A stretch of 62,005 bases of DNA, from assembly GCA_913777325.1 (NCBI GenBank), contig CAJYSA010000113.1:1-62005 (forward strand). Reading direction: 5' to 3'. The DNA is from an uncultured Sphingomonas sp. GTDB taxonomy: Bacteria > Pseudomonadota > Alphaproteobacteria > Sphingomonadales > Sphingomonadaceae. Numbering within the stretch: the first letter of the stretch is position 1; every line of letters begins with the position of its first letter. The notes under the pieces are model-generated. The model was not told the origin of the DNA. It was given only the letters and a program-made list of their open reading frames with translations, and searched no databases. The position numbers were made by a program, and so were the translations under genes. Positions 322 to 3,793 of this stretch are shown one piece after another.

Positions 322-817
322 GGACATTCTCCGAAACATCGTCGCGCTTCTCGCGGATCAGGAGCGCGCGCACCAGCAGAATCAGCACCCCGATCGAGAT
401 CGCGGCATCGGCGACGTTGAACACCAGGAACGGACGCCATTCGCCGAAATGCAGGTCGGCGAAATCGATGACATAGCCCAGCCGGACGCGATCGACGATG
501 TTGCCGATCGCCCCGCCCAGCACCATCCCCAGCGCGAGCTGGTCGACGCGCTTCTTCTCGCGGAACATCCACACCGCCACCGCCGCCGCGATCGCGCCGG
601 TGAACGCCACCAGCAGCCAGCGTCCCGTGTCGGTCTCGGCGCGCAGCTTGCCGAACGACACGCCCTCGTTCTTGGTGAAGCGCAGGTCGAAGATCGGCAG
701 CAGCGTGCGATACGCCCCCAGGAAATCGATGTGCAGCGGCCCGGTGACCAGCCACTTCACGAGCTGGTCGAGCGCGAACACCGCCAGCGCGATCGACAAT
801 CCGGCGCGCGGCGTCAC
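314..817 (-). CDS. lspA: Signal peptidase II (prolipoprotein signal peptidase)
   Basis: Inner-membrane aspartyl protease that removes the signal peptide of lipid-modified prolipoproteins. The protein is 167 aa, normal for the family, with four membrane segments. The two catalytic-Asp motifs are visible: NIVDR (Asp about 109) and FNVAD (Asp about 137). I chose the GTG at 817 because it overlaps the TGA of ileS (GTGA), the usual arrangement of coupled genes; an in-frame ATG at 844 would add nine charged, unconserved residues inside ileS. It lies in the order ileS, lspA, DUF3035 lipoprotein, so an lspA client is encoded directly downstream. Confidence 0.96.
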   Translation of the reverse strand: MTPRAGLSIALAVFALDQLVKWLVTGPLHIDFLGAYRTLLPIFDLRFTKNEGVSFGKLRAETDTGRWLLVAFTGAIAAAVAVWMFREKKRVDQLALGMVLGGAIGNIVDRVRLGYVIDFADLHFGEWRPFLVFNVADAAISIGVLILLVRALLIREKRDDVSENVHA

Positions 818-3765
818 GCCGCCGTCCCCGTCACGTCGGCGCATCGCGCGCACAAGGCGCCGTCCACCGTCACCTCGGGCAGGTGGCGCCAGCAGCGCCC
901 GCACTTGTGATAATCGGTCCGCGTCACCTCGATGGTCGGCGCGGTCCCCACCTTCGCCACGATGAACACCTCCGCCAGCGCCGCGGCGTCCAGCGGCAGG
1001 TCGGGCACGGTCACTTCGGCTTCCAGGCTGGAGCGGATCGTCTTCTCGCGGCGCAGCGGCTCGATCGCCTCGGTCACGCGCTCGCGCAACTGCCGGATCG
1101 CCAGCCAGCGCTGCGACACGTCCTCGCCCGCCGGCGCGGGCAGTGCCGGCCATTCGAGCAGATGGACCGAGCTGTCCTCGGCGGGGAAGCGCGACTGCCA
1201 CACCTCCTCGGCGGTGAACACCAGCACCGGCGCGGCATAGCGGACCAGCGCGTGGAACAGCACGTCCAGCATCGTGCGATAGGCGCGGCGCGTCACGTCG
1301 CCCGCCGCGTCGCAATACAGCGAATCCTTGCGCACGTCGAAGAAGAACGCCGACAGATCCTCGTTGCAGAAGTCGGTCAGTCGCCGGACGTAGCGGTTGA
1401 ACTCATAGCCGTCCGCCGCCTCCTTCAGGTCGCGGTCGAGCGCGTGGAGCAGGTGGAGCATATAGCGCTCCAGCTCGGGCATCTCGGCGACCGGCACCCG
1501 CTCGGCATCGGTGAACCCGTCGAGCGCCCCCAGCAGGTAGCGGAAGGTGTTGCGCAGCTTGCGATACGCGTCCGACGACGTGGCCAGCACCTCCTTGCCG
1601 ATGCGCACATCGTCGAAATAGTCGGTCGACACCGCCCACAGCCGCAGGATGTCCGCGCCCGATTCGCCGATCACCTTCAGCGGATCGACGACATTGCCGA
1701 GCGACTTTGACATCTTGCGCCCCTGCCCGTCCAGCGCGAAGCCGTGCGTCAGCACCGCGTCATACGGCGCGCGCCCGCGCGTGCCGCAGCTTTCCAGCAG
1801 CGACGACTGGAACCAGCCGCGATGCTGGTCCGATCCCTCGACATACAGGTTCGCGCGCGTGCCCTCGCCATAGCGCGCCTCGACCACGAAGGCATGGGTC
1901 GAACCCGAATCGAACCACACGTCGAGGATGTCGTTGACCGGCTCGTAATCGGCCAGGTCATAGCGGTCGCCCAGCAGCGCCTGGTGATCGGCGGTGAACC
2001 ACGCGTCCGCGCCGCTGTCGCGGAAGGCGGCGATGATCCGCGCGTTGACGTCAGCATCATTCAGATACTGCCCGCTCTGCCGATGGACGTAGAGCGCGAT
2101 CGGCACGCCCCACGCACGCTGGCGGCTGATCACCCAGTCGGGACGCCCCTCGACCATCGCGCGGATGCGATTCTCGGCGCGCGCGGGGATCCATTGCGTG
2201 CGGCCGATCGCGTCGAGCGCAAGTTCGCGGAGGGTGGCCCCATTTCGCCCACTCCCCACCGGGGAGAGGGTTGGGTGAGGGGCCGGGGTCTCACCGAGAC
2301 CATCGCTCGCTGCGAGGCGCCGCCCCTCACCCAAACCCTCTCCCCGGAGGGGAGAGGGCTTCGAGTTGGCATCCCACGGCGCGCTTTGCGCGCCGACCTC
2401 CGCGGGCCGACCTGCCCCCGGCAGGTCCGCTTGTCCGCTACGGTCCATCGGGATGAACCATTGCGGGGTTGCGCGGAAGATCACCTTGGCCTTCGAGCGC
2501 CACGAATGCGGATAGCTGTGCGCGAAATCGTCGCTGGCAGACAGCAGGTTGCCCGTCGCGCGCAGGTCCGCACAGATCGGCCCCTCGGCGGCGACGAACT
2601 TCTTGTTGATGACGCTGCCCTGCCCGCCGAGCCATGCCCAGTCCGCGCGGTACATGCCCGCCCCGTCGACCGCGAAGACCGGATCGATCCCGTGCTTCTT
2701 GCACAGCAGGAAGTCGTCCTCGCCATGGTCGGGCGCCATGTGGACCAGTCCGGTGCCCGCATCGGTGGTGACGAACTCGCCCTCGAAGAACGGACGCGGC
2801 GTCGCGAAGAAACCGCCCAGGTGATGCATCGGATGCCGCGCGGTCGCGCCCTCCAGCACCGGTCCCTTGATCAGCGCGATGATCTTGCCCATCGGAATGC
2901 CGGTGCGCTTGGTGAAGGCGGGCATCAGCGGCTCGGCGACCAGATAGCGGCGGCCGTCATGCTCGAACTGCAGGTAATCGACCGCCGAACCGTAAGCGAG
3001 CGCCTGGTTGACCGGGATCGTCCACGGCGTGGTCGTCCAGATCACCGCCAGCGTGCCCGCCAGCCCCGGATATTCGGGGCAGTCGATCACCTCGAACCCG
3101 ACGTCGATCTGCGTCGAGACGATATCCTCATATTCGACCTCGGCCTCGGCCAGCGCGGTCTTTTCCACCGGGCTCCACATCACCGGCTTCGCGCCGCGAT
3201 ACAATTGCCCGCTCTCGGCGAACTTCAGCAACTCGCCCGCGATCACCGCCTCGGCCTCGAACTTCATGGTCAGGTACGGATCGGCCCAGTCGCCCATCAC
3301 CCCCAGCCGCTCGAACTCGCCCGCCTGCACCGCGACCCATTTCTCGGCATAGGCGCGGCATTCGGCGCGGAACTGCGCGACGGGCACCTGATCCTTGTCG
3401 AGCTTCTTGGCGCGATACGCCTCCTCGACCTTCCACTCGATGGGCAGGCCGTGGCAGTCCCAGCCGGGAACATAGGGCGCGTCATAGCCCATCAGGGTGC
3501 GGCTGCGGACGATCACGTCCTTCAGCACCTTGTTCATGGCATGGCCCATATGGATGTCGCCATTGGCATAGGGGGGGCCGTCGTGGAGGATGAAGCGCTC
3601 GCGCCCCAGCCGCTCGCGCCGCAGCCGGTCGTACAATCCGATCCGCTTCCACCGCTCCAGGATCGCGGGCTCCTTCTGCGCCAGCCCCGCCTTCATCGGG
3701 AAGTCGGTGCTGGGCAGGAAAACGGTGTCGCGCCAGTCGCGCGCGGTATCGGATGCGTCGGCCAT
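814..3765 (-). CDS. ileS: Isoleucyl-tRNA synthetase with an in-frame palindromic insertion
   Basis: Charges tRNA-Ile with isoleucine in the cytoplasm. Class I signatures are clear: a HIGH-type motif (HMGH near residue 70), the CP1 editing domain, GRKMSKSLGN, and a C-terminal zinc-binding domain with CGRCW and CARC cysteine pairs. The length is 983 aa against roughly 920-940 in relatives. The excess is one block at about residues 443-507 (nt 2245-2439), between the conserved PQWFIPMDR and NGATLREL segments. It is Pro/Gly-rich and encoded by an inverted-repeat element (separate entry). The ATG at 3765 has a GGCGGGGGG ribosome site just upstream; a GTG at 3792 is less likely. The frame is open throughout, so the enzyme should be functional. 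Confidence 0.97.
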   Translation of the reverse strand: MADASDTARDWRDTVFLPSTDFPMKAGLAQKEPAILERWKRIGLYDRLRRERLGRERFILHDGPPYANGDIHMGHAMNKVLKDVIVRSRTLMGYDAPYVPGWDCHGLPIEWKVEEAYRAKKLDKDQVPVAQFRAECRAYAEKWVAVQAGEFERLGVMGDWADPYLTMKFEAEAVIAGELLKFAESGQLYRGAKPVMWSPVEKTALAEAEVEYEDIVSTQIDVGFEVIDCPEYPGLAGTLAVIWTTTPWTIPVNQALAYGSAVDYLQFEHDGRRYLVAEPLMPAFTKRTGIPMGKIIALIKGPVLEGATARHPMHHLGGFFATPRPFFEGEFVTTDAGTGLVHMAPDHGEDDFLLCKKHGIDPVFAVDGAGMYRADWAWLGGQGSVINKKFVAAEGPICADLRATGNLLSASDDFAHSYPHSWRSKAKVIFRATPQWFIPMDRSGQADLPGAGRPAEVGAQSAPWDANSKPSPLRGEGLGEGRRLAASDGLGETPAPHPTLSPVGSGRNGATLRELALDAIGRTQWIPARAENRIRAMVEGRPDWVISRQRAWGVPIALYVHRQSGQYLNDADVNARIIAAFRDSGADAWFTADHQALLGDRYDLADYEPVNDILDVWFDSGSTHAFVVEARYGEGTRANLYVEGSDQHRGWFQSSLLESCGTRGRAPYDAVLTHGFALDGQGRKMSKSLGNVVDPLKVIGESGADILRLWAVSTDYFDDVRIGKEVLATSSDAYRKLRNTFRYLLGALDGFTDAERVPVAEMPELERYMLHLLHALDRDLKEAADGYEFNRYVRRLTDFCNEDLSAFFFDVRKDSLYCDAAGDVTRRAYRTMLDVLFHALVRYAAPVLVFTAEEVWQSRFPAEDSSVHLLEWPALPAPAGEDVSQRWLAIRQLRERVTEAIEPLRREKTIRSSLEAEVTVPDLPLDAAALAEVFIVAKVGTAPTIEVTRTDYHKCGRCWRHLPEVTVDGALCARCADVTGTAA
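2245..2439. repeat. Palindromic repeat element inserted in frame within ileS
   Basis: About 195 bp (65 codons) with no counterpart in typical IleRS. It has long inverted arms: 2261-2282 (GGGGAGAGGGTTGGGTGAGG...) pairs with 2323-2345, its reverse complement with one extra A. Each arm also contains a small hairpin (CTCCCC/GGGGAG around 2252-2266; CTCTCCCC/GGGGAGAG around 2338-2357). The rest (2360-2439) holds further short GC-rich palindromes. The reading frame crosses the element without a stop and encodes motifs such as PSPLRGEG and PHPTLSP. This resembles small intergenic palindromic repeats common in proteobacteria, here inside an essential gene, in the manner of Rickettsia palindromic elements. 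Exact borders are approximate. Confidence 0.85.
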
Positions 3766-3793
3766 ATGTCCCCCCGCCTTAACCATCATCACG

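Follow-up and report, generated by a model that had tools for sequence, protein, structure and literature searches.

How does an essential gene come to carry a long palindrome within its reading frame? ileS, which encodes isoleucyl-tRNA synthetase (IleRS), is such a gene, and in the stretch of DNA analyzed here (62,005 nucleotides, referred to as the window) it occupies positions 814 to 3792 of the minus strand as an open frame of 992 codons (GTG start; ATG at codon 10). Its identity was confirmed by matches to IleRS chains in PDB and by the Pfam domains tRNA-synt_1, Anticodon_1, and zf-FPG_IleRS. A first-pass annotation had reported an in-frame block at 2245 to 2439; these coordinates and the frame (open minus-strand ORF) were correct, and the residues given with them (443 to 507) fit if numbering begins at the codon-10 ATG. 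The block lies in a hypervariable linker (2245 to 2442, minus strand) of 66 residues (451 to 516), flanked by QWFIPMD and NGATLRELALDAI. It had further been said to split segments that adjoin in ordinary IleRS, and the best-matching solved IleRS bears this out: chain 8c9e_A aligned to query residues 19 to 448 and 521 to 988 (phmmer), with 72 query residues versus 3 chain residues (415 to 417) between the two halves. An intein was rejected, as the block measures 198 bp and Pfam found synthetase-type and zinc-finger domains only, with no splicing domain.

The block consists of two adjoining palindromic elements. The first-pass annotation had described a single one; its palindrome was found, at 2247 to 2359, but the remainder (~2377 to 2442) is a separate two-hairpin element, here termed family D (minus strand), which encodes about RSGQADLPGAGRPAEVGAQSAP and gave a match at 2377 to 2427. 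The palindrome is an inverted dimer of the BoxC/TM_ECO type (~113 bp, minus strand) encoding about residues 478 to 515. In coding order on the minus strand, it comprises arm 1 (2322 to 2359), a spacer (2284 to 2321) resembling, by eye, those of several other copies in the genome that holds the window (G000), and arm 2 (2247 to 2283), an imperfect copy of the motif. Arm 1 was read against the published BoxC pattern, and positions 2324 to 2358, reversed, fit CCCTCNCCC N3-6 GGGNGAGGG N3 GGGNGAGGG exactly (by eye). The palindrome stands far above chance level, with arms of 53 nt (2247 to 2299 and 2307 to 2359; 75% complementary) around a 16-nt core (2268 to 2283 and 2322 to 2337; 94% complementary). 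RNA of 2240 to 2365 (minus strand) folded at −97.1 kcal/mol (z, −8.29), and 0 of 200 shuffles did as well. A search against Rfam returned no family at gathering score; its 31 subthreshold matches, nearly all to microRNA families, scored far below the gathering scores and were therefore judged to reflect how easily a long hairpin is matched by chance. AlphaFold (run on the window and 39 of 80 named loci) yielded a low-confidence model of the window IleRS (mean pLDDT, 65.7; pTM, 0.53), with residues 451 to 510 in blocks at 25 to 33.

The source suggested in the first-pass annotation, a mostly intergenic dispersed repeat that tolerates coding insertion, is the best-supported one. A genome search with the arm sequence had been proposed there, and related palindromes were found at 21 other places in G000 (blastn with the window BoxC unit, E < 1e-5), 15 of them near full length by eye. 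The 13 arm-pattern matches in G000 correspond to 12 copies, namely, that in ileS and 11 others, of which 8 are intergenic, 1 is in valS, 1 is in glyS (at a contig end), and 1 joins murB to ddl (by eye). The exact BoxC pattern matched nine times in G000 and never in the reversed control, with 0 to 40 matches per genome across the genus and at least one in 67 of 101 genus genomes; the other arm pattern gave 13 matches in G000 versus 11 for its reversed control, which matches too because that pattern is nearly symmetric. Arm-to-arm distance was nearly constant (53 to 60 nt) in 11 dimers of G099 and 9 of G092, and the G099 ileS copy has exactly the same spacer as another copy, in G092; both results are what movement of the whole dimer as a unit would produce. 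For these two genomes, the notion that the spacer is invariably target DNA was rejected.

G059, one of the nearest relatives, and G060, which have 0 and 17 exact BoxC matches, respectively, provided a view of the same sites in other states. G059 does not have the BoxC part at its ileS site, again in line with the suggested source. When the flanks of 11 G000 copies were mapped in both genomes (ten loci aligned), G059 proved empty at valS (L104) and murB/ddl (L107), where G000 carries BoxC, so that occupied and unoccupied alleles both exist. It has a BoxC-like copy as well at L105b, whereas at L105a, L109, and L110 the gap is taken up by another inverted repeat, which is CGTC-like; the remaining four loci (L101, L103, L106, and L108) were rearranged or ambiguous. 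Empty, shared, and swapped sites together suggest that the genomes have slots in common as well as elements, with families replacing each other. In G059, the intergenic gaps L244, L246, and L247 contain an inverted repeat unlike the BoxC found there in G000 and G060. The ileS alleles of G000 and G059 differ beyond the insert, so that they defined no target-site duplication. At murB/ddl in G000 (contig C118; L107, 1061 to 3097, minus strand), the BoxC insertion unites the MurB and Ddl domains in a single open frame of 679 codons, within which Ddl could start at a TTG; G059 has two distinct, overlapping genes, and G060 has a BoxC insertion without fusion.

To view the ileS site across the genus, 100 loci were taken from 99 of 101 genus genomes (G069 and G094 left out) and 98 sites were parsed, the other two being the G093 loci, both of which end at the site. 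With 80 named loci from Sphingomonas and its kin, 178 of 180 were parsed, giving 150 distinct sites. Alignment with related IleRS, likewise proposed in the first-pass annotation, showed that linkers differ at this site and that the block is not present in all close relatives. BoxC hairpins occur at 39 of the 150 sites (0.6 expected from codon shuffling) and CGTC-type hairpins at 6 (0 expected); the motifs PVEG (7 versus 2.2), PVEG2 (12 versus 2.8), and DLPG (9 versus 4.2) stand out less clearly from codon shuffles, and the two families behind them rest also on peptides and further comparisons. A repeat of one of three recognized families (A, B, or C) was present at 63 sites; the other 87 include some minimal linkers and many longer ones. 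Linker repeats use all three codon phases, and related stems read in different phases yield the peptides PSPLRGEG, PSRLREG, SPLPQAGG, and PSPSGEG; other linker peptides are TPAKAGVS-ETPAFAGVT and STSLSTNG-ALSEVEG. Several families in several phases thus share one site.

The reading frame is kept at 149 of these 150 sites. The sole exception (L084) is in a genome that is 88% complete (G088), and its frame break is possibly a sequencing error. Frame conservation suggests that the linker insert is translated. An essential gene with GC-rich hairpins at a point where the solved enzyme has adjoining segments also calls to mind ribosomal bypassing, for which hairpins in some mitochondrial genes provide a precedent, or some other removal that would keep the insert out of the protein; neither would require the frame to be kept, and we consider this very improbable.

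Parsimony on a tree of the flanking protein required at least 25 gains or losses and 52 type changes, the tree being a quick maximum-likelihood one with 51 of 147 inner branches weak. Class A, labeled from DNA, comprised 47 rows with 24 changes; labels based on peptides (58 rows, 28 changes) took in some GEG peptides and were discarded as too loose. Class C, labeled from peptides, comprised 11 rows with 10 changes. Exchange of ileS alleles between species after few original insertions might produce much of this diversity, given that the flank tree has several weak forks and that, in some pairs, family D blocks show higher identity than the flanks do (L088/L059, 95% versus 77%; L088/L154, 91% versus 70%). 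Each exchange would still require an initial insertion, though, and several origins are needed to account for BoxC, CGTC, CTTGTCGAAG, and D types that occur in more than one phase. Over all 45 pairs, family D blocks were on average no closer than flanks (67% versus 78%, or 77% versus 78% when recalculated minus L171, in which a stretch other than this block was aligned). Exchange as the main source is therefore unlikely, although some shared linker types could have arisen by it rather than by new insertion.

Family D is itself dispersed in some relatives. In G000 it is single (one match; the best other blastn match in that part had an E value of 0.055), and matches at E ≤ 0.01, many of them weak, occur in 33 of 101 genus genomes. 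Copies outside ileS at E < 1e-5 were found in G003 (five), G073 and G091 (two each), and G055, G012, G096, G086, and G011 (one each). Across species, pairing in stem 1 is kept through double changes (CTG/CAG, CAT/ATG, CGT/ACG, and CAG/CTG); only stem 1 of the comparison is cited, and rows L337, L341, and L342 align poorly to the query.

Such compensatory changes, the very strong mRNA hairpin of the window, and the fact that three tRNA synthetase genes are affected could mean that the insert is kept for a function of its hairpin or peptide, such as slowing translation between domains or regulating the enzyme. A mobile palindrome that depends on its structure to be copied should show compensatory changes too, and the inserts differ widely in both peptide sequence and codon phase. 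Linkers with repeats had a mean fold z of −6.50 (n = 61), compared with −0.32 for linkers without repeats (n = 67) and −0.59 for upstream flanks (n = 128), and just 2 of the 67 repeat-free linkers fell below −2; the hairpin hence belongs to the element and not to ileS. Minimal linkers (41 to 47 residues from QWF to RPDW) exist, moreover, elsewhere in both the genus and the family. A functional insert is, on this evidence, decidedly unlikely.

No other span of IleRS varies as much in length as the linker (range, 84 residues; 38 lengths among 80 IleRS, comprising 79 named loci and the window), the next being residues 296 to 310 (range, 47) and 273 to 286 (range, 30). A second insertion region was seen in the part of CP1 with these two spans, where a CGTC-type motif occurs in L129, L134, L135, L147, and L183 (5 of 80 named loci, 8 of which were not parsed). 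In L171, the ileS linker has a short tandem peptide array (TSGAGVTSGAGM...) adjoining a CGTC-type insert.

Lengthened linkers extend beyond the genus. A linker was called lengthened when the match to a minimal-linker IleRS fragment split in two, which occurred in 12 of the 14 genomes from the genus itself and in 64 of the 99 from other genera of the same family (taken to be Sphingomonadaceae in the order-level comparison). Lengthening is thus indicated in 76 of 113 sampled family genomes versus 1 of 78 matched genomes in other families of the order, where 83 genomes gave 5 without a match, 1 split (G186), and 77 unsplit, with spans of 729 to 753 bp among the matches listed, except in G108 (831 bp). 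Among 20 split loci read from other genera, L300 has a CGTC-type and L309 a CTTGTCGAAG-type repeat, and L291, L294, L305, and L307 have inverted repeats of 11 to 15 nt; some, such as the RWENEGGA type, show no recognizable repeat. The first-pass annotation had viewed the insertion as a single notable case in a sphingomonad: the in-frame insertion stands, but the site is a recurrent hotspot, both within this genus and among further genera of its family.

valS and glyS show the same pattern as ileS. At valS, 31 loci were taken (the best-scoring 30, which are biased toward kin, and one picked for its BoxC pair), and the 26 that were parsed comprised 15 loops of 7 to 9 residues, 9 BoxC-type inserts, and 2 CTTGTCGAAG-type inserts. 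At glyS, 26 of the best-scoring 30 were parsed, with a segment of 30 to 94 residues whose long forms include BoxC-type, CGTC-type, and LPGTGRGTSEAGGGG-PPPLAGEE types. The glyS matches in G000, G090, G054, and G043 lie at contig starts. In G000 (contig C37, L102), positions 1 to 22 adjoin the broken glyS BoxC copy and resemble Illumina adapter sequence. A contig that ends inside a repeat beside such sequence, and draft contigs that stop at the ileS site (G093 at both halves, for example), might suggest that the inserts are assembly artifacts. Contig ends are expected at multicopy repeats, and inserts also lie inside single-contig assemblies, including G010 (L028), G021 (L095), and G026 (L010), and the frame stays open in assemblies made independently, so we give this explanation almost no credence.

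The reading that we prefer, with a probability of about 85%, is that dispersed repeats insert widely and that only in-frame, stop-free insertions in tolerant linkers survive and then decay. Short nonautonomous palindromes (BoxC dimers, CGTC-type, CTTGTCGAAG-type, and family D), scattered through sphingomonad genomes and mostly intergenic, would occasionally insert anew, presumably spreading by copying. The IleRS linker between the CP1/editing domain and the catalytic core would tolerate added residues, so that a stop-free, in-frame insertion may persist there, translated as a Pro/Gly/Ser-rich segment. Such inserts would be harmless, with purifying selection as the filter, and would later decay, be deleted, or gain neighbors, leaving lineage-specific inserts. 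Several observations count against this preferred reading, among them the lack of a definable target-site duplication at ileS, the rarity of the usual REP transposase, the 87 sites with no family A, B, or C repeat, and the out-of-frame L084 allele. In addition, six related loci (L159, L172, L161, L171, L154, and L087) share one short segment around GATCCGCTGCT, with BoxC arms on both sides in two, CGTC-type arms in two, one BoxC arm in one, and none in one, and simple insertion of a unit fails to account for the swapped arms. A further proposal, which we regard as doubtful, is that the IleRS, ValRS, and GlyRS beta linkers are privileged landing sites in the family, hit beyond what tolerance alone would give, either because a BoxC-dimer mobilizer favors translation genes with high expression or because turnover of the linker is beneficial.

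These loci offer a natural record of insertion tolerance in essential enzymes, with one linker, many repeats, several phases, and both minimal and occupied alleles, in which the cost of inserts can be tested in a single enzyme. They also mark a route by which dispersed noncoding repeats can turn into coding sequence, and point to a putative mobilizer of BoxC dimers. As a caution, repeats can be the cause where a synthetase linker is variable or a contig breaks within one of these genes.

Among known systems, a REP with its RAYT was rejected for the window element: the GTAG/CGTC tag is absent from its ends and from those of the G000 copies (by eye), and no Y1_Tnp transposase (PF01797) was found in G000. 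This transposase occurs in 11 of 101 genus genomes at E ≤ 0.001 (10 above the family cutoff), and, with its absence from G000 and rarity in the genus, the usual REP mobilizer provides no explanation. Our literature search, with most subscription papers outside its reach, listed no paper whose entry mentions an ileS hotspot. The passages of PMC3733652 on repeats in genes describe Rickettsia palindromic elements (RPE) in frame within genes of probably functional proteins, REPs inside genes, including those of tRNA synthetases, in X. oryzae, E. litoralis, and S. alaskensis, and different REPs at about one recB site in two Xanthomonas. The ileS block resembles RPE as an in-frame palindrome in a protein gene, and the comparison drawn in the first-pass annotation holds in that sense of working alike, not as membership; unlike RPE, one linker of one enzyme is struck repeatedly by several families. 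It resembles GTAG/CGTC REPs in that those repeats also lie within genes, tRNA synthetases among them, which is already known, but the section on REPs in genes leaves the synthetases unnamed and gives no common ileS/valS/glyS hotspot. In the passages of PMC4666352 on BoxC/TM_ECO, the element is an intrastrand triplex motif, dispersed and found as inverted pairs in E. coli, with 23 copies in MG1655 that are always intergenic. The window dimer is likewise multicopy and dispersed, with one arm an exact pattern match; unlike E. coli BoxC, copies here lie within the reading frames of ileS, valS, and glyS. New, then, are the recurrent multifamily hotspots and the coding BoxC copies: the ileS linker is a recurrent capture site for several families, larger than first described, and resembles a natural landing pad on which dispersed repeats turn coding.
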